From: Anaeromyxobacter sp. Fw109-5
GTDB lineage: Bacteria > Myxococcota > Myxococcia > Myxococcales > Anaeromyxobacteraceae
DNA: 64,000 nucleotides
Direction of reading: 5' to 3'
Assembly: GCF_000017505.1 (NCBI RefSeq)
Contig: NC_009675.1
Span: 1,116,001 to 1,180,000 of the forward strand
Positions 20,856-51,622 of this stretch are shown one piece after another. The position numbers and the translations under genes were made by a program. A model generated the notes under the pieces. The model was not told the origin of the DNA. It made no database searches and saw only the letters and a program-made list of their open reading frames with translations. Within the stretch, counting starts at the first letter, position 1. Every line of letters begins with the position of its first letter.

Positions 20856-20923
20856 GGGTGATTGGCACATCGATTGCTCGGAAGGGTGCCGCCCGGGCCA
20901 CCGAGCCCGCCGGACTCTCATCT

Positions 20924-34880: not shown

Positions 34881-34895
34881 GCTCAGCCCTTGAGC
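34881..34895. promoter_or_regulatory. Regulon palindrome copy 1 (proposed activator site)
   Basis: GCTCA-GCCCT-TGAGC followed by GATCTGC. This is one of four near-identical copies of GCTCA-N5-TGAGC in the block 34880-42455, here 77 bp before the first possible start codon of the sensor-kinase gene. It is proposed as a binding site of the NtrC-type regulator encoded at 36324. Confidence 0.6.
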
Positions 34896-34972
34896 GATCT
34901 GCGCGAGCTTCGAGAGACTCCCGCTTGGGCCGTGGGCCGGTCCCGGGGCGGGGACGCCGTTAAGCGTGGGGG

Positions 34973-36349
34973 ATGGAGCGAGTCCTCACGGCCGGTACGG
35001 AACTTGCGGAGCTTCGGGCCACGATGGCCGCGATCTCTCGCCTCCAGCCCACAGACGCTTTCCAGGCGGCCGTGGAGGCGCCGGTCCCCGAGGGCGTACC
35101 CCGCGCGCGCGGGCTCCCCGGAGACCTCGTCCCGCTCGCGTTTCACCTCCCGGCCCTGGCGGTGCTGGCGCTGTCCGGCCTGTCGGCCAACCGGCTCGGG
35201 GTGGTGGCCCTCGCCGCCGCGGTCCAGCAGGCCCACTACCTCACGTGGCGGAGGCAGCCCGGGAAGCTCTGCGTCAACGCCGACATCGACCAGATCGCGT
35301 GGATGGTGGTCGCGCTGCAGGCGTGCTTCCTCTTCACCGCCGGGGTCGCCGTGGCGGCGACCGGGGGGGTACGCAGCCCGCTGCTCGTGACGATCGCGGG
35401 CGGCTACGCCGCGGGCGTCGCAGCGGTGGGCGACCGGCTGCAGACGCGGGTCCTCCTCGCGGCGACCGCCCTCGTGGTCGGGGTGATCGCGCTGCTGCCG
35501 CCCGTTCTCACTGGCCCGGGGCTCGCGGGCGCTGCGCACGGCCTCCTCACCGTGATGAGCGTCCTCGGGATCGGCGCGCTGCTCGCCCCGGTGCACGCGC
35601 GGGCGCGCAAGCGGCGTGACGCCTTCGCGCGCGCCCGCAAGGAGATGGCCTCCGACGCGCTCGCCCGCGCGCAGAGCCTGGAGCAGATCGGGTCGAAGGT
35701 GGCCCACGAGCTCAAGAACCCGCTCACCGGCGTGAAGGCGCTCGTGCAGCTCGGGCTGCGCAACCCCGCGGAGGCGACCTCCCACGAGCGCCTGGAGGTG
35801 GTGGACCGGGAGGTCACCCGCATGCAGGAGATCCTGCACAACTACCTCTCCTTCACCCGGCCGCTGCAGACGGTGACGCCGCGCCGCGTCCAGCTCGGGC
35901 CGCTCGTCTCGGACACGCTGGTGGTGCTCTCCGCGCGCGCGGACGAGGCCCGCGTCCGCCTGTACGCCCAGGGCGACGCGACGCTGGAGGCCGATCCGCG
36001 CCGCATCAAGGAGGCGCTCCTGAACCTGGTCGCGAACGCCATCGAGGCCACGCCGGCCGGCGGGGAGGTCGTGGTGGAGGTCAGGCCTGCCGGAGACGAG
36101 GCCGAGATCGTCGTGCGCGACACCGGCCGCGGGATGCCCCCCGACACCCTCCGGCGCATCGGCACGCCCTTCTTCACGACGCGCGAGGACGGCACCGGCC
36201 TGGGCGTGGTCCTCGCGCGATCGGTGATCGCGCAGCACGGCGGGTCGCTGCGGTACGAGAGCGAGCCCGGCCATGGGACCCGGGTCAGGGTCACGCTGCC
36301 GCGGGTCTCCAACGGAGCGCGCCATGGTCCGTGTTCTGCTCGTGGATGA
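34973..36349 (+). CDS. Membrane sensor histidine kinase
   Basis: A kinase of up to 458 residues. There are about six hydrophobic helices between residues 51 and 206 (a short-loop membrane sensor, no large periplasmic domain), then a HisKA domain with His-245 in KVAHELKNPLTG and an HATPase_c domain with N box LVNLVANAIEATP, G1 DTGRGMPP, F box PFFTTREDG and G2 GTGLGV. The frame opens at ATG 34973, but ATG 35024 or GTG 35072 are credible because a sigma-54-like element lies at 34993-35008. The 3' end overlaps the regulator gene by 26 bp, so kinase and regulator are translated together. The C-terminal catalytic half is closely similar to the kinase at 48784. Confidence 0.9.
   Translation: MERVLTAGTELAELRATMAAISRLQPTDAFQAAVEAPVPEGVPRARGLPGDLVPLAFHLPALAVLALSGLSANRLGVVALAAAVQQAHYLTWRRQPGKLCVNADIDQIAWMVVALQACFLFTAGVAVAATGGVRSPLLVTIAGGYAAGVAAVGDRLQTRVLLAATALVVGVIALLPPVLTGPGLAGAAHGLLTVMSVLGIGALLAPVHARARKRRDAFARARKEMASDALARAQSLEQIGSKVAHELKNPLTGVKALVQLGLRNPAEATSHERLEVVDREVTRMQEILHNYLSFTRPLQTVTPRRVQLGPLVSDTLVVLSARADEARVRLYAQGDATLEADPRRIKEALLNLVANAIEATPAGGEVVVEVRPAGDEAEIVVRDTGRGMPPDTLRRIGTPFFTTREDGTGLGVVLARSVIAQHGGSLRYESEPGHGTRVRVTLPRVSNGARHGPCSARG
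34993..35008 (+). promoter_or_regulatory. Candidate sigma-54 promoter inside the 5' end of the kinase frame
   Basis: CGGTACGGAACTTGCG matches the sigma-54 -24/-12 pattern (GGCACG-N4-TTGC) with one mismatch in GG-TACG-N4-TTGC. It lies 97 bp after palindrome copy 1. If used, transcription would begin near 35020 and the kinase would have to start at ATG 35024 or GTG 35072, not ATG 34973. The spacing from the palindrome is longer than for the other three copies, so confidence is moderate. Confidence 0.4.
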
Positions 36350-37706
36350 CGAGCCCTCGGTGCGCGTCGCCCTCAAGGAGCTCGTGGAGGCCCGCGGCTG
36401 GGAGCCGCTCCTCGCGCGCTCGGGCGCCGAGGCGCTCGATCTCGTGGACCGCGCCGACGCGGTGGTGACCGACTTCTCGATGCCGGAGATGGACGGGATG
36501 ACGCTGCTGCGCGCCGTCCGCGAGCGCGACGCCAGCCTGCCCGTGATCCTGCTCACCGCGCACGGGTCGGAGCGCCTCGCCGTGCGTGCCATCAAGGCGG
36601 GCGCGTACGAGTACGTCACGAAGCCGTTCGACGTGGACGAGATGCTCGTCGCGCTCGAGCGCGCGCTCGAGGCGCGCGCGCTGCGGCAGCGGAACCGCCA
36701 GCTCACGGCGGAGCACGCCATCGGGCGCCGGGTCGTCTGCGAGTCCACCGTGATGCGCCAGCTCCTCGACGCGACGTCGCGCGTGGCGGGGAAGGAGATC
36801 ACCGTGCTCGTGCGCGGGGAGACCGGCACGGGCAAGGAGCTCATCGGCTCGCTGCTGCACGCGCAGAGCCGCCGCGCCGAGGGGCCGCTGGTGCGCTTCA
36901 ACTGCGGCGCCATCCCGGCAGAGCTGGCGGAGGCGGAGCTGTTCGGGCACACGCGCGGCGCGTTCACCGGGGCCTCCCAGGCGCGGGCGGGGTTCTTCGC
37001 CGAGGCGAACCACGGGACCCTGGTCCTCGACGAGGTGGGCGAGCTGCCGCTCGCCATCCAGGCGAAGCTGCTGCGGGCCCTGCAGGACGGGGAGATCCAG
37101 CCGGTGGGATCGGGCCGGGTCGAGAAGGTGGACGTGCGCATCGTCGCGTGCACCAACCGCGACCTCGCCGCCGAGGTCCGCGCCGGGCGCTTCCGCGAGG
37201 ACCTCTACTACCGGCTCGCGGTGGTGGAGCTCGTGGTCCCGCCGCTCCGGGATCGCCGGGAGGACATCCCGGCGCTCGCGCACGAGTTCGCGTTGCGTTA
37301 CGCGGAGCGGTTCGGCGCCGAGGAGGTCCGCCTCGCGCCCGCGCTCGTCGAGCGCCTGACCGCCGAGGAGTGGCCGGGCAACGTGCGCCAGCTCGAGAAC
37401 GTGATCGCCCGCATGGTCGCGTTGAGCGGGGGCGGCGAGCTCGGGCCGACGGCGTTCGCCGGCAGCGCCGCCGTCGAGGAGAGCCCGAGGCCCCCGGCCG
37501 TCGATGCGGCGGACGGGTCAGGGGTCCACACGCTCCGCGAGCAGCTCGACACCCTCGAGCGCAGCGTCATCGCGCGCACGATGACGGCCGTCCGCGGTAA
37601 CCAGTCGGAGGCCGCCCGGCGCCTCGGCATCAGCCGCAACACGCTCACCGAGCGGCTGCGCCGCTACGACATCGCGGCCGACTTCGGCGCCAGCGGCGCG
37701 AGCTGA
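36324..37706 (+). CDS. NtrC-type sigma-54-dependent response regulator
   Basis: A 460-residue activator. Receiver domain: DD at residues 8-9, phospho-acceptor Asp-50 in VTDFSMPEMDG, Lys-100 in VTKPFDV. Central AAA+ domain: Walker A GETGTGKE (165-172), the sigma-54 contact loop GAFTGA (212-217), Walker B TLVLDEVGEL, and the arginine-finger region REDLYYRL. C-terminal Fis-type helix-turn-helix: NQSEAARRLGISRNTLTERL. All parts needed to activate sigma-54 polymerase are intact. The start is ATG 36324, within the kinase 3' end. The four palindromes in 34881-42453 are its most likely sites, the first giving autoregulation. Confidence 0.95.
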   Translation: MVRVLLVDDEPSVRVALKELVEARGWEPLLARSGAEALDLVDRADAVVTDFSMPEMDGMTLLRAVRERDASLPVILLTAHGSERLAVRAIKAGAYEYVTKPFDVDEMLVALERALEARALRQRNRQLTAEHAIGRRVVCESTVMRQLLDATSRVAGKEITVLVRGETGTGKELIGSLLHAQSRRAEGPLVRFNCGAIPAELAEAELFGHTRGAFTGASQARAGFFAEANHGTLVLDEVGELPLAIQAKLLRALQDGEIQPVGSGRVEKVDVRIVACTNRDLAAEVRAGRFREDLYYRLAVVELVVPPLRDRREDIPALAHEFALRYAERFGAEEVRLAPALVERLTAEEWPGNVRQLENVIARMVALSGGGELGPTAFAGSAAVEESPRPPAVDAADGSGVHTLREQLDTLERSVIARTMTAVRGNQSEAARRLGISRNTLTERLRRYDIAADFGASGAS

Positions 37707-37732: not shown

Positions 37733-37747
37733 GCTCACGCCGTGAGC
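37733..37747. promoter_or_regulatory. Regulon palindrome copy 2
   Basis: GCTCA-CGCCG-TGAGC followed by GATCTGC, 26 bp after the regulator gene and 75 bp before a sigma-54-like element. It is proposed as an upstream activator site for the membrane-protein gene at 37891. Confidence 0.7.
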
Positions 37748-37822
37748 GATCTGCGCCGCCGGCGGGCGAGCCCCCCGTCGTCCCGGGCGCGAGGGTCGCT
37801 GCGCTGCCGGGGCGGGATCGGG

Positions 37823-37838
37823 TGGCGCGCCGCCTGCA
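37823..37838 (+). promoter_or_regulatory. Sigma-54 promoter for the 37891 gene
   Basis: TGGCGCGCCGCCTGCA matches TGGCACG-N4-TTGCA with two substitutions and keeps the invariant GG and GC dinucleotides at the correct spacing. It lies 52 bp before the start codon, and palindrome copy 2 is 75 bp upstream. Confidence 0.65.
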
Positions 37839-37890
37839 ACCTCCGGTCGAGCGTCGGCGAGGCCGACTCTCGACAAGGAGGCGAGACATC

Positions 37891-38466
37891 ATGAGCGTCT
37901 ACCAGCTCCTCATCTTCGTCCACGTGCTCGGGGCCGTGGGCGTCTTCGTGGCGATGGGCATCGAGGCGGTCTCGGTGCCCCGCCTGCAGCGGGCCGAGAC
38001 GCCCGCGGAGGCCCGCGAGGCGCTGCGCGCCGTCGCGCCGTCCGGGCGGCTCGGCCCCCTCGCCATGCTCACCGCGCTCGTCTCGGGCGTGTGGATGATG
38101 GCGGTGGCCTGGCGGCACCAGGCCTGGATCGTGACCGCCTTCATCGCGCTCGTCGGCATGGGGCTGGCCGGCGGCGCCGTCACCGGCCGCGGCCTGCGGC
38201 GGCTCGGCGCCGCCCTCGCCGCCGAGCGCGGGGCGGTGCTCTCCGAGACGTTCCGCGCGGTCCGGTCGGGCGTTCCGCTCGCGGCGTCGCTGCGCGTCCG
38301 CACGGCGCTCGGGGTCGGCATCCTGGCCCTCATGACCATGAAGCCGGACACCGGCGGCGCCTGGCTCATCCTGCTGGCGGCCGGGCTGGCGGCGCTCGTC
38401 GCGGCCGTGCCGCTCGCCGGCCGCCGCGCGCCGCTGGCGCCCTCCCCGGCGCGCGACGCGAGCTGA
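37891..38466 (+). CDS. DUF2269-like four-helix membrane protein
   Basis: A 191-residue inner-membrane protein with about four or five hydrophobic helices. The start YQLLIFVHVLGAVGVFVAMGIEA has the HxxGA pattern of DUF2269 and related quinone- or haem-like membrane proteins; VSGVWMMAVAW and LRVRTALGVGILALMTMKP follow. AAGGAGGCG lies nine bases before ATG 37891. The upstream sigma-54 element and palindrome put it in the proposed efflux regulon. Function is unknown; it may modulate membrane permeability or sense the inducer. Confidence 0.75.
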   Translation: MSVYQLLIFVHVLGAVGVFVAMGIEAVSVPRLQRAETPAEAREALRAVAPSGRLGPLAMLTALVSGVWMMAVAWRHQAWIVTAFIALVGMGLAGGAVTGRGLRRLGAALAAERGAVLSETFRAVRSGVPLAASLRVRTALGVGILALMTMKPDTGGAWLILLAAGLAALVAAVPLAGRRAPLAPSPARDAS

Positions 38467-39508: not shown

Positions 39509-40105
39509 TCACCTCCGCGGCCGCGCGCCGGCGAGGAGCCGCTCGAACGCGGCCTCCGCCCGCTCGCGCGAGCGCGGATCTCGAAGGAGCCGGCTGTGCG
39601 AGTTCCAGGCGAGCCCGATGCCGTGGATCTCGAAGGCCAGCTGGGCGGGGTCGACGTCCGCGCGGAAGTGGCCGAGCTCCTGGCCGCGCCGCACGATCCG
39701 CGAGAGCGTGGAGAGCCACTGGCGCTGGATCTCGACGAGGAGATCCCGGGCCGCGCCAGGCCGATCGTCGAGCTCCGCCGCGGCGGCGACGAAGACGCAG
39801 CCGCCGGGCTGACGGACCCGCTTCGGCCACTCGAACCAGTTCTCGAACAGCGCGCGCAGCCGCGGCTCGCCCGCCGGGCGGGCGAGCGCGGGGCGGACGA
39901 CCACCTCGGCGAACCGCTCGGCGGCGCGCTCGAGCGTGCGAACCTGGAGATCCTCCTTCGACGCGAAGTGCGCGAAGAGCCCGCTCTTCGAGAGCGCGAG
40001 CTCCTCGGCGAGCCGGCCGATGGTCACCCCCTCGAGCCCGAGCTCGCTCGCCATCCGCAGCGCGCGATCCAGGATCACCTCGCGCGTCTTCTCGCCCTTG
40101 CGCAT
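39509..40105 (-). CDS. TetR/AcrR-family transcriptional regulator
   Basis: A 198-residue repressor. The N-terminal helix-turn-helix reads TREVILDRALRMASELGLEGVTIGRLAEELALSKSGLFAHFASKEDL, with the recognition helix SKSGLFAHF. The C-terminal ligand domain resembles the TetR_C_33/YcdC-like group (WFEWPKRVRQPGGCVFVAAAAE). The start is ATG 40103-40105. A palindrome with AACGA/TCGTT arms lies 16 bp upstream, giving autoregulation. It is divergent from the outer-membrane protein gene and shares its intergenic region with palindrome copy 3. Confidence 0.9.
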   Translation of the reverse strand: MRKGEKTREVILDRALRMASELGLEGVTIGRLAEELALSKSGLFAHFASKEDLQVRTLERAAERFAEVVVRPALARPAGEPRLRALFENWFEWPKRVRQPGGCVFVAAAAELDDRPGAARDLLVEIQRQWLSTLSRIVRRGQELGHFRADVDPAQLAFEIHGIGLAWNSHSRLLRDPRSRERAEAAFERLLAGARPRR

Positions 40106-40178: not shown

Positions 40179-40193
40179 GCTCACGCCCTGAGC
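40179..40193. promoter_or_regulatory. Regulon palindrome copy 3
   Basis: GCTCA-CGCCC-TGAGC followed by GATCTGC, in the region between the TetR gene and the outer-membrane protein gene. It lies 84 bp before a sigma-54-like element. Confidence 0.7.
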
Positions 40194-40277
40194 GATCTGC
40201 ACAGCGCGCTGCGCACCCGCCGGGGCGGGGCGCCGCGACCTCCCGAGAAAAGCGGCGCCGCGCGTGCGCGCCTCGGC

Positions 40278-40293
40278 TGGCGCGCGCGCTGCA
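40278..40293 (+). promoter_or_regulatory. Sigma-54 promoter for the outer-membrane protein gene
   Basis: TGGCGCGCGCGCTGCA keeps the invariant GG/GC spacing and the TGC(A) end of the -12 box. It is 75 bp before the start codon at 40369 and 84 bp after palindrome copy 3. Confidence 0.6.
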
Positions 40294-40368
40294 GAGGCGC
40301 GGTCCGTCGGCACCGCCGACGTTCGACGCAGCACATCGCCGGCGACCGCCGGGGAAGGAAGGCAGGAG

Positions 40369-40986
40369 ATGAAGGCTGCAAGGTGGAGTTTCGCTCTCGG
40401 CGCGGGGCTGCTGCTCGCCGCGGCGCCGGTGATCTCGAGCGCGCAGGGCTGGCGAGGGACGGAGGCCCGCGAGCAGACGCCTTACGGCGTCTACGTCCTC
40501 CTGGGAGGCGGCGTGACCGACTTCGCCGACGAGGACGTGAAGGACCGCTTCGACGTGGGCGGGACGTGGGACGCCCGCGTCGGGATCGGCAACCGCTTCT
40601 ACGTCGGCGGCGAGCTGGCCTACGTCGGCTCGGCGCTGAAGGCGGTCGGAGCGGGCCCGGATCTCGTGACGAACGGTGCGGAGGCCGTGCTCCGGCTCCA
40701 GTATCCGATCGCCAACGGGAGCTGGCTCGTGGAGCCCTTCGCGTTCGGCGGCATCGGCTGGAACCACCTGTCCGTCCAGGACGCGGCGCCCGGCGTGGAC
40801 GACACCGACGACGCGGGGGTCGTCCCGTTCGGCGGGGGGATCACCGTGGGCTACGATCGGCTCCTCCTCGACGCACGGTTCACCTACCGCACCGCCTTCG
40901 ACGAGGATCTCGCGCTCGCCGCGGGCGACGGCCCGGCGAGCCTCGAGCGGTGGGCCGTCTCGGGATCCGTCGGGTACGCGTTCTGA
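40369..40986 (+). CDS. Outer-membrane beta-barrel protein
   Basis: A 205-residue protein with a signal peptide (hydrophobic core about residues 8-22, LGAGLLLAAAPVISSAQG). It has alternating amphipathic strands (YGVYVLLGGGVTDF, RFYVGGELAYVGSALKAVG, LVEPFAFGGIGWNHL and LLLDARFTYRTAF) and ends in VSGSVGYAF with the C-terminal Phe used by the BAM machinery. It is a small OmpA/OmpW-like 8-strand barrel. The start is ATG 40369 with GGAAGGAAGG. The sigma-54 promoter and palindrome place it in the efflux regulon. A strong hairpin separates it from tolC. Confidence 0.82.
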   Translation: MKAARWSFALGAGLLLAAAPVISSAQGWRGTEAREQTPYGVYVLLGGGVTDFADEDVKDRFDVGGTWDARVGIGNRFYVGGELAYVGSALKAVGAGPDLVTNGAEAVLRLQYPIANGSWLVEPFAFGGIGWNHLSVQDAAPGVDDTDDAGVVPFGGGITVGYDRLLLDARFTYRTAFDEDLALAAGDGPASLERWAVSGSVGYAF

Positions 40987-41106: not shown

Positions 41107-42411
41107 ATGCCGGTGAAGGTCTTGCTCGCGGCTTGCGGGCTCCTCGTCGCGGCCAGGGCGGGCGCGCTCCAGCCGCTCGAGGAGTTCCTGGACGGAGCGC
41201 GGAAGAGCGGAGTCGACAACGCCGAGGCGCGCGCGCTCCGCAGGCAGGCCGGCGCCGAGGCGCGCGCCGAGCTGGGCCGCGCGCTGCCGCGGCTGTCGCT
41301 GCGCGGCGAATACATCCGCAACGAGTTCGAGACGGTGCTGCAGCTCCCCGGCGCGGGAGGGGGGCCGGCCGAGAGGGTGACGGTCACGCCGCGCGACCAG
41401 CTCGACGGCACGGCCACCCTCGTGGTGCCGCTCGTCGACCTCGCCAGCTTCGCGCGCATCGGCGCGGCGCGGTCCGGAGCGAGGGCCGCCGAGCGGCAGG
41501 AGACCTCCACCGACCTCGCCTCCCAGGCGCGCGTGGTCCAGGACTACTACCAGCTCGTGGCCAACGTCGCGCTCGTGGGGGCCTCGAGCCGAGCGCTCGA
41601 GGTGGCTCGGGCCGGCCTGCGCATCGCGGAGGAGCGTCACGACGCCGGCTCCACCGGGCTGCTCGACGTGGATCGCGCGCGGGCCGAGGTGGAGCGCAAC
41701 GTCCAGCAGCTCGCGAGCGCGGAGCTCCAGGTCTCGCTCGTCGCGCGCGAGCTGCGCTCGCTCACCGGGATCGCCCCCGAGGTCGGTGGCGAGGCGCCGC
41801 TCGCGGACGATCTCCACGAGGAGCCCCCGCTCGAGCGGTTCCAGCCGGCGGACGACCAGCTCCCCGCCGTCGCGGCCGCGATCGAGAGCCGCGTCGCCGC
41901 GGACCGGCAGGCGAGGGCGCAGCGGTTCGTCCTCGTCCCCAGCCTCGACGCGAGCCTGACGGAGCGGGTCAGCAACGCCGAGGGCCTCGCGGGGAGGGAC
42001 GCCTACTGGCAGGCCGTCGTCGGCCTGAGCTGGTCCATCGACCTCACCACCCTCGCCGGGATCCGGGCCCAGGAGGCGGCGGCGGACGCCGCGCGCGCGA
42101 GGGAGGAGCGCGTCCGCCTCGCGGCGCGAGACGACATCCACCGCGCGTGGGCGAGCGTGCGGACGCACATCGCGCGGAGCCGGTCCGCCCGCACGGAGGC
42201 GCAGGTCAGCGGGCGGGCGGCGGAGCTGGCGATGCAGCGATACCAGGCCGGCGCGGCGGCGCAGCTCGATCTCCTGCAGGCGCTGCGCGACGCCTTCAAC
42301 GCGGACGCCGCGCGCATCCAGGCGGATGCCGACCTGGTCAACGCGCGGGCCCAGCTCCGCCTCGCCGCGGGCGAGAGCCTGCTCCAGCGTTCGGGGAGGG
42401 GGGCGCCGTGA
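41107..42411 (+). CDS. TolC-family outer-membrane efflux channel
   Basis: A 434-residue outer-membrane factor. Signal peptide: hydrophobic residues 4-20 (KVLLAACGLLVAARAGALQ). The two-fold TolC repeat shows in long coiled helices (LASQARVVQDYYQLVANVALV and LLDVDRARAEVERNVQQL; IRAQEAAADAARAREERVRLAARDDIHRAW) and in the ending QLDLLQALRDAFNADAARIQADADLVNARAQLRLAAGE, each part of longer runs. ATG 41107 is preferred over GTG 41101 because GAGGAG lies at correct spacing. It forms the exit duct for the RND pump 167 bp downstream. Confidence 0.9.
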   Translation: MPVKVLLAACGLLVAARAGALQPLEEFLDGARKSGVDNAEARALRRQAGAEARAELGRALPRLSLRGEYIRNEFETVLQLPGAGGGPAERVTVTPRDQLDGTATLVVPLVDLASFARIGAARSGARAAERQETSTDLASQARVVQDYYQLVANVALVGASSRALEVARAGLRIAEERHDAGSTGLLDVDRARAEVERNVQQLASAELQVSLVARELRSLTGIAPEVGGEAPLADDLHEEPPLERFQPADDQLPAVAAAIESRVAADRQARAQRFVLVPSLDASLTERVSNAEGLAGRDAYWQAVVGLSWSIDLTTLAGIRAQEAAADAARAREERVRLAARDDIHRAWASVRTHIARSRSARTEAQVSGRAAELAMQRYQAGAAAQLDLLQALRDAFNADAARIQADADLVNARAQLRLAAGESLLQRSGRGAP

Positions 42412-42438: not shown

Positions 42439-42453
42439 GCTCAGCGCCTGAGC
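42439..42453. promoter_or_regulatory. Regulon palindrome copy 4
   Basis: GCTCA-GCGCC-TGAGC followed by GATCCGC, 28 bp after tolC and 71 bp before a sigma-54-like element. It is proposed as the activator site for the RND operon. Confidence 0.7.
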
Positions 42454-42524
42454 GATCCGCTCAGGCGATCCGGGCCCGCGGCGGGCGGACGGCGCCAAAT
42501 CCACGCTGCGGCGCCTGCGGGCCG

Positions 42525-42540
42525 TGGCCCGCCGCCTGCA
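42525..42540 (+). promoter_or_regulatory. Sigma-54 promoter of the RND operon
   Basis: TGGCCCGCCGCCTGCA has the GG/GC spacing and sequence of a -24/-12 promoter, closely matching the element at 37823. The adaptor gene starts 38 bp after it, so the leader is short. Confidence 0.65.
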
Positions 42541-42577: not shown

Positions 42578-43714
42578 ATGAAGAGCAGAACCCGGCAGTG
42601 GCTCGTGGTCGTCGTCGGTGTGGTCGTGGTCGTCGGCATCCTGGTCGGGGTGAAGGCGGGGCAGATCGTCGGCATGGTCCGCGCGGGCGAGTCGTTCGTG
42701 CCCCCTCCCGAGGCCGTCTCCTCGGCGAAGGTCGAGGCCACCCGCTGGGAGTCGGCGCAGGCGGCGATCGGCTCCCTCGTGGCGGTGCGGGGCGTGGTGC
42801 TCGGTGCCGAGCTGCCGGGCACCGTCCGCGAGATCGCGTTCGAGTCCGGGAGCACGGTGAAGCGGGGAGACGTGCTCGTGAAGCTCGACACGTCCGCCGA
42901 GGAGGCGCAGCTCGCCGCGGCGCGCGCCGAAGCGACCCTCGCGCGGCTCAGCCTGCGCCGCGCGGCGCGCCTGCGCGAGGGCGAGGCGAACGCGCAGGCC
43001 GATCTCGACGCGGCGGAGGCCAGGGCCAAGCAGGCGGAGGCCACCGTCGCGAACCTCACCGCGACCATCGCCAAGAAGACCATCCGCGCCCCCTTCGACG
43101 GGCGCATCGCGATCCGGCAGGTCGAGCTCGGGCAGGTGGTGTCGCAGGGCACCCCCATCGCCTCGCTCCAGTCCGTCACGCCGATCCACGCGGACTTCTG
43201 GCTGCCCCAGCAGGCCCTCGCGGAGCTCACGGCGGGTCAGCGCGTGCGCATGCGCACGGACGCCTTCCGCGACCAGGAGTGGGACGGCGAGATCACCACC
43301 GTCAACCCGGAGGTGGACGCCGCGACGCGCAACGTCCGCGTCCGGGCGACCTTCGAGAACGCCGATGGGCGGCTCCGGCCCGGGATGTTCGCCAAGGTGG
43401 ACGTGCTCGCCCCGGAGGAGCGCTCCGTGCTGGTCATCCCCGCCACCGCCGTGATCTTCGCGCCCTACGGCGACTCGGTGTTCGCCATCGAGGAGAAGAA
43501 GGACCCGGGCGGGAAGACGGTCGCCGTCGCCCGGCAGAAGTTCGTCCGCACGGGGGAGCGGAGGGGCGACCTCGTGGCGGTGGAGGACGGCCTCCAGGCC
43601 GGCGAGACGATCGTGAGCTCCGGCGCGTTCAAGCTGCGCAACGGCGCCTCGGTCACCGTGAACAACGCGCTCGCGCCGCGGGCGCAGCTCACCCCGAAGC
43701 CGACCGACGAGTGA
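42578..43714 (+). CDS. RND efflux periplasmic adaptor subunit (membrane fusion protein)
   Basis: A 378-residue HlyD/AcrA-type adaptor. It has an N-terminal membrane anchor (about residues 8-26, WLVVVVGVVVVVGILVGVK) with no lipobox cysteine. Then come a lipoyl half-motif (GAELPGTVREIAFESGSTVKRGDVLVKLD), an alpha-hairpin (residues 110-160), the second lipoyl half (IRAPFDGRIAIRQVELGQVVSQGTPI) and beta-barrel plus membrane-proximal domains (AGETIVSSGAFKLRNGASVTV). The start is ATG 42578. It lies 15 bp before the permease gene, in one operon under the sigma-54 promoter at 42525. Confidence 0.93.
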   Translation: MKSRTRQWLVVVVGVVVVVGILVGVKAGQIVGMVRAGESFVPPPEAVSSAKVEATRWESAQAAIGSLVAVRGVVLGAELPGTVREIAFESGSTVKRGDVLVKLDTSAEEAQLAAARAEATLARLSLRRAARLREGEANAQADLDAAEARAKQAEATVANLTATIAKKTIRAPFDGRIAIRQVELGQVVSQGTPIASLQSVTPIHADFWLPQQALAELTAGQRVRMRTDAFRDQEWDGEITTVNPEVDAATRNVRVRATFENADGRLRPGMFAKVDVLAPEERSVLVIPATAVIFAPYGDSVFAIEEKKDPGGKTVAVARQKFVRTGERRGDLVAVEDGLQAGETIVSSGAFKLRNGASVTVNNALAPRAQLTPKPTDE

Positions 43715-43729: not shown

Positions 43730-46700
43730 ATGAGATTCACCGACCTGTTCATCCGCCGCCCCGTCATCGCCATCGTCGTGAGCCTCGTCATCGTCATCGC
43801 GGGGCTCCAGGCGATGCGCTCGCTCAACGCGAGGCAGTACCCCCGCAGCGAGAACGCCCAGATCATCGTGACCACGAGCTACGTGGGGGCGAACGCGGAG
43901 CTCGTGCGCGGCTTCATCACCACGCCGCTCGAGCGCGTGATCTCCTCCGCGGACGGCGTCGACTACATCGAGTCGGAGAGCAAGCAGAACCTCTCCACCA
44001 TCCGCGCCCGGCTGCGCCTCAACCACGACGCGACCCGGGCGCTCTCCGAGATCAGCGCGAAGGTCGACCAGGTGCGCGGCGACCTCCCGCCCGAGGCGGA
44101 GGTCCCCGTCCTGACCGTCGAGTCCGCCGACAGCGAGTTCGCGTCCGCCTACCTCAGCTTCTCCTCGGACATCCTCAAGCAGAACGAGATCACCGACTAC
44201 CTGGTGCGGGTCATCCAGCCCCGCCTCTCCGCCATCGAGGGCGTGCAGCGGGCCGACATCCTCGGCGCGCGGACCTTCGCGATGCGGATCTGGCTCAAGC
44301 CCGACCGCATGGCGTCCCTGAACGTCAGCCCGGCCCAGGTCCGTGAGGCGCTCGCCCGGAACAACTACCAGGCCGCGGTCGGCCAGACGAAGGGCTCGCT
44401 CGTCCAGGTCAACCTCACCACGAACACCGACCTGCGCTCGGTCCGGGAGTTCGAGCAGCTGCCCGTGCGGGAGCAGGACGGCGCGATCGTCCGGCTCGGC
44501 GACGTGGCGAGCGTGGTGCTCGGCGCGGAGGACTACGACGCCGCGGTGAACTTCACCGGCCAGACCGCGGTCTTCATCGGCGTGTGGGCGCTCCCGAACG
44601 CGAACTCGCTGGACGTCATCGAGCGCGTCCGGGCCGAGATGGACTCCCTCCAGAAGGAGATCCCCAGCCAGATCCAGGGGCGGGTCGCGTTCGACGCGAC
44701 CAGCTACGTCCGGGACGCCATCACCGAGGTGGAGCGGACCCTCGCCGAGACGCTGCTCATCGTGGTGATCGTCATCTTCCTGTTCCTCGGCTCGCTGCGC
44801 TCGGTGCTGGTGCCGGTGGTCGCCATCCCCGTCTCGCTCATCGGCGCCGTGTTCCTCATGCAGGCGTTCGGGTTCACCGTGAACCTCCTGACGCTGCTCG
44901 CCATCGTGCTCTCGGTCGGGCTCGTGGTGGACGACGCCATCGTCGTCGTCGAGAACGTCGAGCGCCACCTGCGCGAGGGGATGAAACCCGTGGACGCCGC
45001 GATCCGGGGCGCGCGCGAGCTCGTCGGCCCCATCATCGCGATGACCATCACGCTCGCCGCCGTCTACACGCCGATCGCCTTCCAGGGCGGGCTCACCGGC
45101 GCGCTGTTCCGCGAGTTCGCGCTCACGCTCTCGGGAGCGGTCGCCATCTCGGGCGTCGTCGCGCTGACGCTCTCTCCGGTGATGTCGGCGTTCCTCCTCC
45201 GCCAGGGCCGGGAGGAGCGGGGGCTCGCGGGCCGCATCAACCGTGGCTTCGATCGGTTGAGGGCGACGTACTCCCGGCACCTCGACGTCGGCCTCCGCTC
45301 CCGCGGGGCCATCTACGCAGCCTGGATCGCGGTGAGCGCCCTCACGCTCCTCATGTTCACCCAGGTCCCCAAGGAGCTCGCTCCGACGGAGGACCAGGGC
45401 TACGTGTTCGGCGTCGTCAACACGCCCGCCAACTCGACCCTGGATCAGATCACGCCGTCCACGCGGGAGGTGAACCGGACCGTGATGGCGATGCCGGAAT
45501 CGGAGTTCACCTTCCAGATCACCTTCCCGAACGGCGGCTTCTGGGGCGTCGTGTTCGAGCCGTGGGAGAAGCGGGATCGCACGGCGTTCGAGCTGCTCCA
45601 GGAGATCCAGGGCAGGGTCTCCTCCATCGCCGGCATCCAGACCTTCCCGATCCTGCCGCCCGCCCTCCCGGGAGGCGGCCAGTTCCCGGTCGAGTTCGTC
45701 ATCGCCTCGACCGCGGAGAGCGCGGAGATCCTGCAGTTCGCCAAGCAGCTGCAGGAGCGGGCCACGGCGAGCGGGATGTTCGCGTTCCCGCCGCTCATCG
45801 ACGTCAAGCTCGACCAGCCCTCGTCGGAGATCGAGATCGATCGCGAGAAGGTGGCGGAGCTGGGCCTCGACCTGCGCACCGTCGGGCAGGACCTGGGATC
45901 GGCGCTCGGGGGGGACTACGTCAACCGCTTCAGCATCGGCGGCCGCAGCTACAAGGTGATCCCGCAGCTCGTGCGCTCCGAGCGCCTCAACCCCGAGCAG
46001 CTCAAGGACATCTACGTCACCGGCCCTGCGGGCCAGCTCGTCTCGCTCGCGTCCATCGCCACGCTGCGTGACACCGTCACGCCCCGGACGCTCAACCGCT
46101 TCCAGCAGCTCAACGCCGTGAAGATCAGCGGCGTCGCCATCCGCCCGCTGGATCAGGCGCTCGGGTTCCTGGAGGACGAGGCCTCGCGGATCCTCCCCGA
46201 GGGCTACACCCTCGACTACACGGGCGAGTCGCGCCAGCTGCGGACGGAGGGGGACCGGTTCCTCCCCGCGTTCCTCCTCGCGGTGGTGCTGATCTTCCTC
46301 GTGCTCGCCGCGCAGTTCAACAGCTTCCGCGATCCGTTCGTGATCCTCGCCGGCTCGGTCCCGCTCGGCATGTTCGGCGCGGTCGTCATGATGTTCCTGA
46401 AGATGCCGAACCCCAACCTGCCGTTCTTCACCGACGGCTGGACCACCACCCTGAACGTCTACTCGCAGGTGGGCCTCGTGACGCTCATCGGGCTCGTCTC
46501 GAAGAACGGCATCCTCATCGTCGAGTTCGCGAACAAGCTCCAGGAGCAGGGGCACACCAAGCTCGACGCGGTCCGCGAGGCGGCGGCCACGCGCCTACGG
46601 CCGATCCTCATGACCAGCGTCGCCACGGTCCTCGGCCACTTCCCGCTGACCCTCGTGAGCGGGCCCGGCGCGGAGGCCCGGAACAGCATCGGCCTCGTGC

Positions 46701-46843
46701 TGGTCGCCGGCATGACCATCGGCACGGCGTTCACGCTGTTCTTCGTGCCCGCCATCTACCTCCTCATCGCCCGGGATCACCGGGCGGACCAGAAGAGCGG
46801 CGCGCGCGCGCCCGCCGCCGCGCCGGCGGCCAGCGGAGGCTAG
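43730..46843 (+). CDS. RND multidrug efflux permease (HAE1/AcrB-like)
   Basis: A 1037-residue inner-membrane proton/drug antiporter. Helix 1 is RRPVIAIVVSLVIVIAGLQAM, the HAE1 start. Twelve helices in two halves enclose two large periplasmic loops. The proton-relay aspartates are in helix 4 (VGLVVDDAIVVVENV), and helix 10 ends with the Lys-containing GLVSKNGILIVEFAN. Family motifs such as RLGDVASVVLG and MTSVATVLGHFPL are present. It forms a tripartite pump with the adaptor upstream and the TolC-like channel. It is a drug-type, not metal-type (HME), permease by its overall motifs. The last four bases overlap the convergent MocR gene. Confidence 0.95.
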   Translation: MRFTDLFIRRPVIAIVVSLVIVIAGLQAMRSLNARQYPRSENAQIIVTTSYVGANAELVRGFITTPLERVISSADGVDYIESESKQNLSTIRARLRLNHDATRALSEISAKVDQVRGDLPPEAEVPVLTVESADSEFASAYLSFSSDILKQNEITDYLVRVIQPRLSAIEGVQRADILGARTFAMRIWLKPDRMASLNVSPAQVREALARNNYQAAVGQTKGSLVQVNLTTNTDLRSVREFEQLPVREQDGAIVRLGDVASVVLGAEDYDAAVNFTGQTAVFIGVWALPNANSLDVIERVRAEMDSLQKEIPSQIQGRVAFDATSYVRDAITEVERTLAETLLIVVIVIFLFLGSLRSVLVPVVAIPVSLIGAVFLMQAFGFTVNLLTLLAIVLSVGLVVDDAIVVVENVERHLREGMKPVDAAIRGARELVGPIIAMTITLAAVYTPIAFQGGLTGALFREFALTLSGAVAISGVVALTLSPVMSAFLLRQGREERGLAGRINRGFDRLRATYSRHLDVGLRSRGAIYAAWIAVSALTLLMFTQVPKELAPTEDQGYVFGVVNTPANSTLDQITPSTREVNRTVMAMPESEFTFQITFPNGGFWGVVFEPWEKRDRTAFELLQEIQGRVSSIAGIQTFPILPPALPGGGQFPVEFVIASTAESAEILQFAKQLQERATASGMFAFPPLIDVKLDQPSSEIEIDREKVAELGLDLRTVGQDLGSALGGDYVNRFSIGGRSYKVIPQLVRSERLNPEQLKDIYVTGPAGQLVSLASIATLRDTVTPRTLNRFQQLNAVKISGVAIRPLDQALGFLEDEASRILPEGYTLDYTGESRQLRTEGDRFLPAFLLAVVLIFLVLAAQFNSFRDPFVILAGSVPLGMFGAVVMMFLKMPNPNLPFFTDGWTTTLNVYSQVGLVTLIGLVSKNGILIVEFANKLQEQGHTKLDAVREAAATRLRPILMTSVATVLGHFPLTLVSGPGAEARNSIGLVLVAGMTIGTAFTLFFVPAIYLLIARDHRADQKSGARAPAAAPAASGG

Positions 46844-48339
46844 CGGACGTGACGGCCGGCGCCGCCACGCACCGGCAGCGACTGCGCGAGGCGCCTCGCG
46901 GCCTCGCGCAGCTCGCGCTCCGCGAGCCGGGCGAACCCCGCGCGCAGCGCGGCCGGGGGCCGGCCGTGGAAGGTGAACTCGCTCGCCGGCCTGAAGCCGA
47001 CGCCGCGTTCCCGGGCGGCCGCCGCCCAGAGGTCCACGTCGACGTCGGGCGCCGCGCGGCACCACAGCGCCAGGCCGCCCGCCGGCACGGAGAACGCGAG
47101 CGCGCCCCCCAGCTCCTCCCGGAGGGCCTCGGCGAGCACGTCGCGGCGGGTCGCGTACGCGCGGCGCATGCGCCACACGTGCTGCTGGATCTCGCCGTCC
47201 TCGAGGAGCTCGGCGAGGGCCAGCTCCATCGGCCGGTCTCCCTGCCCGTCGACGTAGCGCCGATGGTCGGCGAGGCAGCGCACGACCTCCTCGGGCGCCT
47301 CGACGTAGCCGATGCGCAGCGCGGGTGCGAGCACCTTGGAGAGGGTCCCCACGTACACGACGACGCCGGCGGGGTCGTTGCTGGCGAGCGGCAGCACGGG
47401 CCGGCCGTCGTAGTGGAAGTCGCCGTCGTAGTCGTCCTCGACCAGGACGATGCGCTCGGCCGCGGCGAGCTTCAGCAGGGCCAGGCGCCTGCCCGCGGGG
47501 AGCGTGGCGGTGGTCGGGAGCTGGTGCTGGGGCGTGAGGTAGACGGCGCGCACGCGCTCGCGCCGGGTGAGCGCCTCGAGGACGTCCACCCGGAGCCCCT
47601 CGCCGTCCAGCGGGACCGGCACCAGGCGGGCGCCGACGGCGCGGAACGCCTCCCAGGCGGGCGTGTAGCCGAGCTCCTCCACCGCCACGACGTCGCCGGG
47701 CCGCACGAGGGCCCGCGCCACGAGCGCGAGCGCGTGCTGGCTCCCGCGCGTGACGATGAGCCTGGAGGGATCGGGATCCAGGCCGCGGGTGGAGCGGAGC
47801 ATCGCGCCGAGCGCCACGCGCAGGCGCTCCTCTCCGAACGGCTCGCAGTAGTCGAGGATGCCGGGCCGCCGGAGGGCGCGGCGGTGGGCGCGGGCGATCG
47901 CGTGGACCGGGACGAGGTGGAGGTCGGGGACGCCGCCGCTGAGCTCGAGGGCGCCGGGCCCGGCGGGCAGGCGGCGAGCGCGCGGGCGCGGTCCGGGCTC
48001 GAAGGCGTAGCCGGCGCGACGGCCGCCGCCGCTCGCCTCGCGGCGGGCGACCCGCGCGCGCAGGGCGACCGGGATCTCGCTCGAGACGTACGTGCCCCGG
48101 TTCGGCGAGGCGTCGACCCACCCCTCCGAGGCGAGCTCCCCGTAGGCGGCCAGCACCGTGTTCCGGTGGACGCGTAGCGTGCGCGAGAGCTCGCGCGTGC
48201 CGGGGAGTCGCTCCCCGGGGCGCAGCCGCCCGGCGGCGATGTGGGCCGCGATCGCGCGCGCGATCTGGGCCACGACCGGGGCGGCGTCGTCGCGGTCGAC
48301 GGCGAGGGTCAGGTTCCAGCTCCGCACCGGCACATGCAT
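46840..48339 (-). CDS. MocR/PdxR-family regulator (GntR HTH + aminotransferase-like domain)
   Basis: A 499-residue chimera of a GntR winged helix (residues about 10-80: IARAIAAHIAAGRLRPGERLPGTRELSRTLRVHRNTVLAAYGELASEG, part) and a fold-type I aminotransferase domain. The PLP lysine is in VGTLSKVLAPALRIGY, with YDGDFHYDG and HQLPTTATLPAGRRL typical of MocR proteins. Such regulators sense PLP, GABA or related amino compounds. It is divergent from the membrane-protein/kinase pair at 48413, with a palindrome between them, so it probably controls both transcripts. It converges on the RND gene with a 4-bp tail overlap. Confidence 0.93.
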   Translation of the reverse strand: MHVPVRSWNLTLAVDRDDAAPVVAQIARAIAAHIAAGRLRPGERLPGTRELSRTLRVHRNTVLAAYGELASEGWVDASPNRGTYVSSEIPVALRARVARREASGGGRRAGYAFEPGPRPRARRLPAGPGALELSGGVPDLHLVPVHAIARAHRRALRRPGILDYCEPFGEERLRVALGAMLRSTRGLDPDPSRLIVTRGSQHALALVARALVRPGDVVAVEELGYTPAWEAFRAVGARLVPVPLDGEGLRVDVLEALTRRERVRAVYLTPQHQLPTTATLPAGRRLALLKLAAAERIVLVEDDYDGDFHYDGRPVLPLASNDPAGVVVYVGTLSKVLAPALRIGYVEAPEEVVRCLADHRRYVDGQGDRPMELALAELLEDGEIQQHVWRMRRAYATRRDVLAEALREELGGALAFSVPAGGLALWCRAAPDVDVDLWAAAARERGVGFRPASEFTFHGRPPAALRAGFARLAERELREAARRLAQSLPVRGGAGRHVR

Positions 48340-48349
48340 AAAGTCGGAT

Positions 48350-48371
48350 CCGGTACTTTTTCAAGTACCGG
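48350..48371. promoter_or_regulatory. Perfect palindrome, probable MocR operator
   Basis: CCGGTACTT and AAGTACCGG form a 9-bp perfect inverted repeat with a TTTC spacer. It begins 11 bp before the MocR start codon and ends 41 bp before the divergent gene. It is one of the few A/T-containing patches in the area. Position and symmetry suggest the MocR operator. Confidence 0.6.
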
Positions 48372-48412: not shown

Positions 48413-48787
48413 ATGGCTCGAGAGGAGTGCTCCCCGCACGAGCACGCGCCCAGCTTCGAGGCGGCGCGTCGTTGGCGCGCCTGGCGGGAGTGGCCGGGCT
48501 TCATGGGGCTCGCGACCGGCTTCGCCCTGTGGGCGTTCGTCGTGACCGGCGTGCTCGCGCCGCTCGCGGACGCGCTGGCGCGGTTCCGCTCGCCAGCGCT
48601 CGCCCCGCAGCCCGGCTGCGTGGTGCCCGGCGACGCCCCTTTCATGGACGAGCCCTCCTGGGCGCCGCACCCCCGTGCATCCGTGCTCGCCCGGCGCGCA
48701 ACTTCGTGCATCCCGGCCGCGCCCTCGCGCGACGAAGATCCTTCGCGAGCCGCAGCGCAGCGGCCGAGCCGAGGAAGGCCGACATGA
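48413..48787 (+). CDS. Small one-helix membrane protein, coupled to kinase gene
   Basis: A 124-residue protein starting at ATG 48413 with GGAGGAGAG. The N-terminus MAREECSPHEHAPSFEAARRW is polar. A membrane helix follows (about residues 37-57, LATGFALWAFVVTGVLAPLAD) after an aromatic WREWPGF motif; the rest is proline/alanine-rich with three cysteines. The stop overlaps the start of the DUF2917-kinase by four bases (ATGA). No family is recognised. It may be the membrane-bound input partner of that soluble kinase. Confidence 0.65.
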   Translation: MAREECSPHEHAPSFEAARRWRAWREWPGFMGLATGFALWAFVVTGVLAPLADALARFRSPALAPQPGCVVPGDAPFMDEPSWAPHPRASVLARRATSCIPAAPSRDEDPSRAAAQRPSRGRPT

Positions 48788-49752
48788 CCGGGAACGCCAG
48801 GACCACACCGCCCCAGGGCGCCGCCGCTGGGACGAGGGAGCTCGTCGAGAACGGGACCACGAGCTTCCCGCGTCGCAAGGCCCCCGTCGTCGTGCGGGTG
48901 GAGCGCGGGACCGTGCTCGTCACGCGCGAGGGGGATCTGGACGACCACGTCCTCGAGGCGGGCGACGAGCTCGTGCTCCCGCCCGGCGGGCTCGCCGTGG
49001 GCTGGGCGTTCACGGCCGCCACGATCTCGGTGCGCGAGGACCGCCGCCGCGACCGCGCGCGCCAGGGGAGCGCGCCGGAGCTGCCGCGCGCCTGGGACGT
49101 CGAGGCGCTCGGGATGACGGTGGCGCACGAGCTCAAGAACCCGCTCACCGGCGTGAAGGCGCTCGTCCAGCTCGGCCTGCGCAACCCCGCGGAGGCGCGC
49201 TCCCACGAGCGCCTCGCGCTGCTCGAGCGGGAGATCACGCGCATGCAACGGATCCTGCAGCGGCACCTCTCGTCGTCGCGGCGTCAGCTCACCCGCGCGC
49301 CCGTGGCGCTCGGGCCGCTCGTCGCCGACGCGCTGGCCGTGCTCTCGGCGCGGGCGGACGAGGCGCGCGTTCGCCTGGTCTGGCGCGGGGACGCCACGGT
49401 CGAGGCCGATCCGCTCCGGCTCGAGGAGGCCCTCGTGAACCTCGTCGCGAACGCCATCGAGGCGACGCCGCGGGGCGGGGAGGTGGTGGTCGAGGTGCTC
49501 CAGCAGGGGGACAGCGCCGAGATCGCGGTCCGCGACACCGGCCGCGGGATGCGGCCCGAGACGCTCCGGCGCGTCGGCACGCCCTTCTTCACCACGCGCG
49601 AGGACGGGACGGGGCTCGGCGTGGCGCTGGCGCGCTCCGCCTTCGCCGAGCACGGCGGCTCCCTGCGCTACGAGAGCGCGCCGGGGAAGGGGACGACCGT
49701 CAGGGCGACGCTCCCGGCGCGACCGGCGCTGGAGGCGACCGCGGCGTCGTAG
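48784..49752 (+). CDS. DUF2917-histidine kinase fusion
   Basis: A 322-residue soluble kinase. Residues 18-85 form a DUF2917-type beta domain (RELVENGTTSFPRRKAPVVV, RGTVLVTREGDLDDHVLEAGDELVLPPGGLAVGWAF in part). This is followed directly by HisKA with His-115 in TVAHELKNPLTG and a full HATPase_c domain (N box NLVANAIEATP, DTGRGM, PFFTTREDGTGLGV). The catalytic half is nearly the same as in the kinase at 34973, including VKALVQLGLRNPAEA, but the sensor membrane domain has been replaced. DUF2917 usually occurs alone. It may be membrane-recruited by the small protein encoded just upstream. Its last 53 bases overlap the convergent sulfatase-fold gene. Confidence 0.82.
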   Translation: MTGNARTTPPQGAAAGTRELVENGTTSFPRRKAPVVVRVERGTVLVTREGDLDDHVLEAGDELVLPPGGLAVGWAFTAATISVREDRRRDRARQGSAPELPRAWDVEALGMTVAHELKNPLTGVKALVQLGLRNPAEARSHERLALLEREITRMQRILQRHLSSSRRQLTRAPVALGPLVADALAVLSARADEARVRLVWRGDATVEADPLRLEEALVNLVANAIEATPRGGEVVVEVLQQGDSAEIAVRDTGRGMRPETLRRVGTPFFTTREDGTGLGVALARSAFAEHGGSLRYESAPGKGTTVRATLPARPALEATAAS

Positions 49753-51622
49753 CGGCGAGCATCCAGCGGAAGAGGTCCTGGTTCACCTCGGCGCGCGAGA
49801 CGGCGAGCTCGCGCGCGGCGTGCTCGGCGAGGGCGTCGCATCGCTCCGGCGCTACCGGCTCGCCCGAGGAGGCGTCGAGGCAAGCCGGCGATCCCCAGCG
49901 CCGCTCGGCGCCGAGCCACACCAGGGCTTCCGACACGGCGGAGCCGTCCGGGAGGATCACCGGGCGGGCGGGCCCGGACACGAGGCTGCGCCCGTGGAAG
50001 AAGGTCCGCTCCCGTGGGAGGCCGAGCAGGTCCGCGATGGTCGGCGCGACGTCCAGCTGACCCGCCGGAGCGTGGCGCACCTCCGCGACCCGCCCGAAGG
50101 GGAGGCGCACGAGGAGCGGGACGCGCGCCTCGTGCAGGAGCCACACGTCGGCGCGGGTCTCCGGGAGCCCGAGCAGCGCCGTGCCCGAGGCGCGGCGCGT
50201 CACGCCGTGGTGGTCGCCGTAGACCACGAGCACGGAGCGCTCGAGCACGCCGGAGGCGCGCAGCCGGTCGACGAGGGTGCCCAGGGCGGCGTCGGTGAAG
50301 CGCGCGGAGTTCAGGTAGTAGCCGACCTCTGTCCCCTCCAGCGCGCCCAGCGCGAGCGTCCGCGGGAGGTTCGGGTCGACGAAAGGGGCGTGGTTCGACA
50401 GGGTGACGAGCACGGCGTAGAACGGCTCCGGCAGCGCCGACAGCCGCTCCGCCGCCTGCTCGAAGAAGCGCGCGTCCGAGAGGCCGAGCCCGATCACCGG
50501 GCCTCGATCGAAGTCGCGGATGCTGAGGAAGCGCTCGTACCCCATCGCCGGGTACATGCGATCGCGGTTCCAGAAGTTGGGCCAGTTCGCGTGCATCGCC
50601 ACCGTGGCGTAGCCGGCCTCCCGCAGCAGCTCGGGGAGACACCGGAAGTCCGCGTCGTAGCGCTCGGTGAACACGGCTCCGGTCTCGAGGGGATAGAGCG
50701 AGCAGCCCGCGAGCAGCTCCGCGTCCGACGTGGTGCCCTGGCGGATCTGCGAGAAGGCGTGGGTGAAGGTGAGGCTCTCGCGCGCGAGCCGATCCAGGTG
50801 CGGGGTCACGAGCGCGCCGCCCACGCGCCGCCCCGTGGCGAACGCCTGGAACGACTCGAGCTGCACCACGATGACGTTCCGGCCGCGCTGCGTCCCGGTC
50901 AGCGGGCCCGAGGGCGTCGCCCGCTCGCGGTGGTACGCGAGCGCCTCGGGCAGGGAGGCGCGCCCGGAGCGATCGAGGCGGCGCCGTACGAAGGTGGCGA
51001 CGTCGAAGAGCTGGTACCCGATCACGTTCAGCTCCGCGGCGACCTCGCCTCGTGACACCCCGAGCCGGCGCGGGCCGGTCAGCGGGCGGTCGAGCAGCGG
51101 CAGCGCGGGCAGGGTGAAGAGGAGCGCGCCCGACAGCGCGAGCGCGTTCGCGTGCCGCCGCGAAGCCGGGCGCGGGCCTCCCCGCGCCAGCGCGGCCGCC
51201 ACCGCGAGCGCCGCGACGTCCGCCCAGAGGAGCACGTCCGAGGGGTGCAACAGCGCCGCGATCGCTCCTCCCACGCGGGTCGCCTGCGCGGCGAACGCGA
51301 GCGCGGCCACCGAGGCCAGCTCCGAGAACTGCCGGTGGTAGAGGAGGTGGACGTGGTGGACCGCGGTGAGGGCGCCGTCGGCGAGGGCCAGCGCGACGAG
51401 CTGCGCGCGCCCTCGACGCCGGACCGCCACGCCCAGGACGAGCATCGCGACGGCCACGCTCGCCGCGACGGCGCTCCAGCGCACGGGAGCGTCGCCCTGC
51501 AGGGGAGGCGACCACAGGAGCTGCTTAGCGACGAGCCAGGCCCCGACCGCCGCCGGCGCGAGGGCGCGGCGAGCGGCGCGAAGGAGCGCGGAGGCGCCCG
51601 TCGCGGCGGGAGTCTGCTTCAC
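49700..51622 (-). CDS. LTA-synthase-like sulfatase-fold membrane enzyme
   Basis: A 640-residue protein with five or six N-terminal helices (residues 20-180) and a large periplasmic sulfatase/alkaline-phosphatase-fold domain. Metal ligands typical of LtaS/MdoB are visible: Glu-256 in VVQLESFQAF, the catalytic Thr-297/298 in RQGTTSDAELLAG, and VVYGDHHG for the Asp-His pair. In Gram-negatives such enzymes transfer phosphoglycerol or phosphoethanolamine to periplasmic glucans or envelope glycans, since lipoteichoic acid is absent. The start is GTG 51622. It overlaps the convergent kinase gene by 53 bp at the 3' end. Confidence 0.85.
   Translation of the reverse strand: MKQTPAATGASALLRAARRALAPAAVGAWLVAKQLLWSPPLQGDAPVRWSAVAASVAVAMLVLGVAVRRRGRAQLVALALADGALTAVHHVHLLYHRQFSELASVAALAFAAQATRVGGAIAALLHPSDVLLWADVAALAVAAALARGGPRPASRRHANALALSGALLFTLPALPLLDRPLTGPRRLGVSRGEVAAELNVIGYQLFDVATFVRRRLDRSGRASLPEALAYHRERATPSGPLTGTQRGRNVIVVQLESFQAFATGRRVGGALVTPHLDRLARESLTFTHAFSQIRQGTTSDAELLAGCSLYPLETGAVFTERYDADFRCLPELLREAGYATVAMHANWPNFWNRDRMYPAMGYERFLSIRDFDRGPVIGLGLSDARFFEQAAERLSALPEPFYAVLVTLSNHAPFVDPNLPRTLALGALEGTEVGYYLNSARFTDAALGTLVDRLRASGVLERSVLVVYGDHHGVTRRASGTALLGLPETRADVWLLHEARVPLLVRLPFGRVAEVRHAPAGQLDVAPTIADLLGLPRERTFFHGRSLVSGPARPVILPDGSAVSEALVWLGAERRWGSPACLDASSGEPVAPERCDALAEHAARELAVSRAEVNQDLFRWMLAATTPRSPPAPVAPGASP

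Follow-up and report, generated by a model that had tools for sequence, protein, structure and literature searches.

The domain composition of the kinase HK2

The window analysed here is a stretch of 64,000 nucleotides (C1:1116001-1180000) from an Anaeromyxobacter genome (G000) that consists of a single contig of 5,277,990 bp. Positions below refer to the window unless stated otherwise. It encodes a soluble histidine kinase, HK2, with the following domains.

48784..49752, plus strand: HK2, soluble histidine kinase of 322 aa, DUF2917-HisKA-HATPase_c (Pfam; motifs kept in A. soli and A. terrae)
48871..48999, plus strand: DUF2917 domain, HK2 residues 30-72, predicted cupin barrel (Pfam; AlphaFold2; cupin matches)
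49117..49287, plus strand: HisKA domain, HK2 residues 112-168, phosphoacceptor His115 (Pfam; alignment)
49408..49722, plus strand: HATPase_c domain, HK2 residues 209-313 (Pfam)

An initial annotation of this DNA had described HK2 as a DUF2917 domain fused straight to HisKA, with no response regulator after the kinase, and both points are borne out. The DUF2917 match (39 bits, 5e-10) lies above the Pfam gathering score of 25.5, Pfam detects no other sensor domain in the protein, and the next gene (49700-51622) is encoded on the opposite strand. The HisKA and HATPase_c matches also exceed their Pfam cut-offs, giving HK2 the domain content of a HisKA histidine kinase. The alignment shows intact H, N, G1, F and G2 boxes, so that activity as a kinase is possible. 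The closest solved structure is that of ZraS (9jfj). A full-length AlphaFold model of HK2 built from three sequences was poor and was discarded.

The AlphaFold2 model of the DUF2917 domain, built with 26 homologues, is an all-beta barrel with a mean pLDDT of 95.5. Its matches in the PDB are cupins (Foldseek TM 0.76-0.80 to 3fjs, 2ozj and ppnP; VIA Z of about 10-11 over 70-74 residues), and the domain is predicted with high confidence to be a small cupin barrel with the double-stranded beta-helix fold. No solved structure matching DUF2917 by sequence was found. The predicted fold is that of the small-molecule-binding barrels of the cupin superfamily represented by these three structures, but DUF2917 differs from them in the absence of the HxH...E...H metal ligands, as the 26 sequences have one conserved histidine and no HxH. 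The conserved motif of the domain is T-x-x-GD-x-x-DH-x-L.

Genomic context and distribution

HK2 of this soil bacterium is encoded near a two-component pair and a drug-efflux pump. The relevant features of this cluster are listed below.

34881..34899: candidate RR54 site before HK1-RR54, without sigma-54 promoter
34973..36349, plus strand: HK1, membrane histidine kinase paired with RR54 (Pfam; pair conserved in relatives)
36324..37706, plus strand: RR54, NtrC-type response regulator with receiver, sigma-54 AAA+ and Fis HTH domains (Pfam)
37733..37838, plus strand: candidate RR54 site (37733-37751) and sigma-54 promoter (37823-37838)
37888..38466, plus strand: small membrane protein gene of the putative regulon, no Pfam match (conserved in the cluster)
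40179..40293, plus strand: candidate RR54 site (40179-40197) and sigma-54 promoter (40278-40293)
40357..40986, plus strand: outer-membrane beta-barrel protein, start codon uncertain (Pfam)
41107..42411, plus strand: TolC-type outer-membrane efflux protein (Pfam OEP)
42439..42540, plus strand: candidate RR54 site (42439-42457) and sigma-54 promoter (42525-42540) of MFP-RND
42578..43714, plus strand: membrane-fusion protein (MFP) of the pump (Pfam)
43730..46843, plus strand: RND efflux pump, AcrB family (Pfam; HK2 directly after it in A. soli and A. terrae)

Systems in which a HisKA kinase acts on an NtrC-type sigma-54 regulator are of a known kind, and HK1-RR54 has the same layout as ZraS/ZraR and AtoS/AtoC. 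The catalytic half of HK2 scores best against the AtoS and ZraS models, but far below the equivalog cut-offs, with 148 bits against 479 for the ZraS model (NCBIfam PRK10364). HK2 differs from these kinases in being soluble, in carrying a DUF2917 cupin as its input instead of a periplasmic or PAS sensor, and in having no adjoining regulator.

The same fusion is encoded in two further species (G003 and G006), with matching contigs from A. terrae SG22 and A. soli SG29, and in all three genomes that have HK2 it lies within the HK1-RR54-efflux cluster. The HK2 gene of A. soli and A. terrae has the orientation of the RND pump gene and starts about 120 bases after it; MocR and the small ORF are both absent from the interval. 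Next come genes for a PPK2-type polyphosphate kinase and an MFS transporter. Each of these species has a further DUF2917 gene, a distant one, about 5.7 kb 3' of HK2 (L030 on A. terrae C110, L037 on A. soli C80). The cluster HK1-RR54-(outer-membrane genes)-MFP-RND is conserved across the genus and also occurs without HK2 (G002, G005, G007 and G011).

A search for the DUF2917 and HisKA architecture elsewhere recovered it in three genomes only, within the searches made. No further DUF2917-kinase fusion was detected in 195 Myxococcota or in plasmids, none was evident among cut-off matches from 369 genomes of the class of G195 as judged by open-frame length, and a scan of about 85,000 species genomes with two peptide patterns returned none beyond A. 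soli and A. terrae. HK2 shares its input domain and the predicted cupin fold with the stand-alone DUF2917 proteins (PF11142), from which it is set apart by the kinase fusion.

Relationship of HK2 to HK1 and HK3

The catalytic half of HK2 is about 71-74% identical to HK1, and the stretch AHELKNPLTGVKALVQLGLRNPAEA is identical in the two proteins, which agrees with the near-identical stretches first noted. The same genome encodes HK3, a sensorless kinase of 233 aa (genome position 3453203) that is 73-74% identical to the catalytic half of HK2. After HK1 and HK3, the next kinases of this genome, among about 90 kinase-like matches, go down to 40% identity with HK2.

From this similarity it had been concluded that one of the two window kinases gave rise to the other, and the phylogeny does not bear this out. 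HK1 proteins form their own clade (98/99), which excludes HK2; HK2 and HK3 fall outside it, with no supported order. AU tests rejected none of the alternatives in which HK2, HK1 with HK2, or HK2 with HK3 form a clade. An origin of HK2 from inside the HK1 clade was therefore set aside as unsupported by both the tree and the tests, and its direct descent from HK1 is likewise not supported. A soluble HK3-like kinase appears to be at least as good a parent.

In the window strain, the first phosphoacceptor helix of HK2 is identical to that of HK1 over 25 residues, and the second helix differs. Under the specificity rules of kinases and regulators an identical phosphoacceptor helix predicts the same partner, and RR54 is thus the predicted partner of HK2. 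Counting against this, the helix of A. soli and A. terrae has T changed to A at one position. HK3 has the same helix type, which leaves room for further inputs to RR54 or for a different target of HK2. As a separate observation, the HK3 protein of G007 (L075) has a degenerate H-box, AHDLKNSIT, where other HK3 proteins keep HELKNPL.

HK2 might instead signal to some other regulator elsewhere in the genome, its place behind the pump being incidental or a matter of shared expression only. The lack of an adjoining regulator, the large number of kinase-like genes and the equal closeness of HK3-type orphan kinases are all compatible with this. We consider it quite improbable, given that HK2 shares an identical phosphoacceptor helix with HK1, the kinase paired with RR54, and that a stand-alone relative of the sensor domain belongs to the same probable regulon in two species, as described below.

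A MocR cassette between the pump and HK2

In the window the pump gene and HK2 are separated by the following features.

46840..48339, minus strand: MocR/PdxR-type regulator, cassette gene between pump and HK2 (Pfam; NCBIfam PdxR; orthologues elsewhere in relatives)
48352..48369: palindrome GGTACTTTTTCAAGTACC, candidate MocR operator (kept in A. terrae, both arms changed)
48413..48787, plus strand: ORF of a small single-helix membrane protein, genuine to about codon 86, followed by read-through of the leader (A. terrae homologue beside MocR; codon-position GC)
48672..48783, plus strand: remnant of the ancestral non-coding RND-HK2 leader (alignment against shuffles; blastn)

The initial annotation had presented the small ORF as a membrane protein coupled to HK2 by a four-base ATGA overlap. 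The ORF exists, has a single hydrophobic stretch (residues 30-48) and no Pfam match, and its end overlaps the HK2 start as described, but codons 87-124 are not coding-like and are homologous to the non-coding leader DNA of the relatives. GC3 falls from 0.96 to 0.68 at codon 87, where the leader alignment begins. The segment 48672-48783 aligns to the RND-HK2 leader of A. terrae with a score of 83 (best of 200 shuffles, 47) and to that of A. soli with a score of 73 (best shuffle, 50).

The upstream part of the ORF has its relatives elsewhere. A. terrae encodes an orthologue of the MocR protein (77%) on another contig, divergent from a homologue of the small ORF whose product has 55-70% identity with the N-terminal part of the window's protein. 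Of the first 62 codons, 42 encode the same residue in both, and the changes number 16, 8 and 23 at the three codon positions, a pattern as expected for a protein under selection. The palindrome between MocR and the small gene reads GGTACTTTTTCAAGTACC in the window, where it has no second match; its A. terrae counterpart is GGCACTTTTTCAAGTGCC, in which both arms are changed. The A. terrae pair, the selection signal and the kept palindrome indicate that MocR and the small gene form a separate unit. MocR orthologues in the relatives sit at other genomic places; neither A. soli nor A. terrae has the small gene next to HK2, and none was found anywhere in the A. soli genome. The cassette MocR passes the NCBIfam model NF052282 for PdxR-type MocR regulators (342 bits versus 320) and resembles these in having a palindrome in the divergent promoter region, while its divergent gene encodes a small membrane protein and not a vitamin B6 function.

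The simplest account of this arrangement is that insertion of the cassette truncated the small gene, whose frame would now cross the old leader to the ATGA of HK2. The left-hand boundary of the cassette is close to the end of the RND gene, whose final residues differ from those in A. terrae. That the other lineage lost the cassette is conceivable but disfavoured by the cassette's position elsewhere in A. terrae and by the contiguous leader there. Insertion of MocR and the small gene between pump and kinase would have placed HK2 of the window strain on a MocR-side promoter, from which it is probably transcribed together with the small gene.

The ATGA overlap, this likely co-transcription and the 71-74% identity of the two kinases could be taken to mean that the small protein is a dedicated anchor or sensor partner of HK2, and that duplication of HK1 followed by replacement of a domain produced HK2. 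Insertion of a cassette that loses its stop codon can create a four-base overlap, and thus the overlap alone is no proof of a functional pair. The small gene is missing beside HK2 in both relatives that keep the kinase, an absence that had been named beforehand as evidence against the pairing. In A. terrae its product is the divergent partner of MocR, its end in the window is read-through of leader DNA, and the HK1 proteins form a separate clade. We therefore rejected the small protein as a conserved partner of HK2; the combined proposal is largely refuted on conservation and is extremely unlikely.

The putative RR54 binding site and regulon

A palindrome GCTCA-N5-TGAGC is found upstream of the pump operon in seven genomes (in G007 with one arm imperfect), followed about 86-112 bases further on by a TGGC[GC]C-type sigma-54 promoter sequence ending in TGCA. 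The window contains four perfect palindromes (at 34881, 37733, 40179 and 42439), which are the only perfect ones genome-wide, and they precede HK1-RR54, the membrane-protein gene, the outer-membrane genes and the MFP-RND genes, respectively. RR54, as the NtrC-type regulator of the cluster, is the natural and probable reader of this site. A version of the site with a 6-base spacer gave nothing specific, the correct spacer being 5. The scan of the whole window for the sigma-54 consensus was at chance level, and promoters were therefore judged by position and conservation. No convincing RR54-type sites were found before HK3.

Across the 5.28-Mb genome there are four composites of site and promoter. 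Three belong to the cluster, and the fourth, at genome positions 3805877-3806004, lies before a stand-alone DUF2917 gene whose product is a close relative of the HK2 sensor domain. The pattern included a TGNGC wildcard that was allowed only after the region upstream of this G000 gene had been viewed. The strict pattern recovered the corresponding site in A. terrae, where two of the three composite sites belong to the cluster and the third precedes a stand-alone DUF2917 gene on C62. A reversed composite pattern, used as a control, gave no match in 24 genomes. In G007 a homologue of the window's membrane-protein gene, located at an unrelated position, is preceded by one composite site, indicating that the site travels with the gene.

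Several local observations concern regulation within the window. The site at 34881-34899 has no sigma-54 promoter behind it, likewise in A. soli and A. terrae, and it may thus serve autorepression. No counterpart of the TetR regulator gene at 39509-40105, which diverges from the pump operon, was found in the A. soli or A. terrae cluster, and the window strain therefore has an additional local regulator. At 20863-20878, TGGCACATCGATTGCT matches the sigma-54 consensus perfectly; it precedes an lpxC-like ORF at 20923 by about 45 bases.

Stand-alone DUF2917 proteins

In the DUF2917 phylogeny, the domain of HK2 groups with the stand-alone proteins L014, L036 and L034 in a clade (99/98) without a supported inner order, and these three proteins come from the same three genomes as HK2. 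Stand-alone DUF2917 genes of the relatives mostly adjoin a divergent gene for a MocR-type or LysR-type regulator (L015-L019, L021, L023, L024 and L028; L043 and L044). A 528-aa frame of the myxobacterium G104 (L152 1111-2694), considered as a kinase fusion, proved to join DUF2917 to an EamA-type transporter in one frame, with a GntR/MocR-like frame upstream on the other strand; it is another link between DUF2917 and export. The open-access literature yielded nothing on the HK2 system and no described function for DUF2917, which one paper names in a table of expressed genes. As far as searched, the use of a DUF2917 cupin as a kinase input, with a stand-alone relative in the same regulon, is new.

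HK2 as a possible second input to RR54

Given the helix identity, the conserved cluster and the putatively co-regulated DUF2917 gene, the best reading of HK2 is that it supplies RR54 with a second input, from the cytosol, in addition to that of the membrane kinase HK1; our confidence in this is moderate. The second input to the sigma-54 regulator suggested at the outset is thus retained as a prediction, to which the candidate site also contributes. The cupin barrel would bind a ligand or partner, which may be a pump substrate or a metabolite, and this would change the kinase or phosphatase state of HK2, which would pass phosphate to RR54 or take phosphate from it. Bound to GCTCA-N5-TGAGC, RR54 would switch on the outer-membrane, MFP-RND and stand-alone DUF2917 genes by opening their sigma-54 promoters. 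HK2 follows the pump gene in A. soli and A. terrae, so that this output would there raise HK2 itself as well, creating a feedback.

Several results count against a second input. HK2 is missing from most genomes that carry the cluster, it has no RR54-type site of its own in the window, and the stand-alone DUF2917 gene of A. soli lacks such a site. In addition, the leader between pump and HK2 in A. soli (L029 1717-1832) can form a very stable hairpin of -71.8 kcal/mol (z -4.9, without a U-run), which could separate the pump and HK2 transcripts. The hairpin is weaker in A. terrae and in the window.

The same feedback position invites a different view of the effect of HK2, namely that it damps RR54 once the pump has been made instead of activating it, mainly by phosphatase activity, as a sink for phosphate or by forming heterodimers with HK1. 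Its place at the end of the RR54-driven operon in A. soli and A. terrae is what negative feedback would lead one to expect, and a shared phosphoacceptor helix combined with a different second helix is consistent with this role. The intact catalytic motifs speak against it by allowing kinase activity, and the sequence itself gives no decision on direction; we regard damping as rather unlikely.

The stand-alone DUF2917 protein, made under RR54 control, and the sensorless HK3 could together act as a split HK2, with HK2 as their Rosetta-stone fusion. This is doubtful. If true, it would make DUF2917 a general class of cytosolic receptor subunits for regulators of efflux and transport. The occurrence of DUF2917 as a kinase input and as a stand-alone gene in what is probably one small sigma-54 regulon makes the role of this domain testable.
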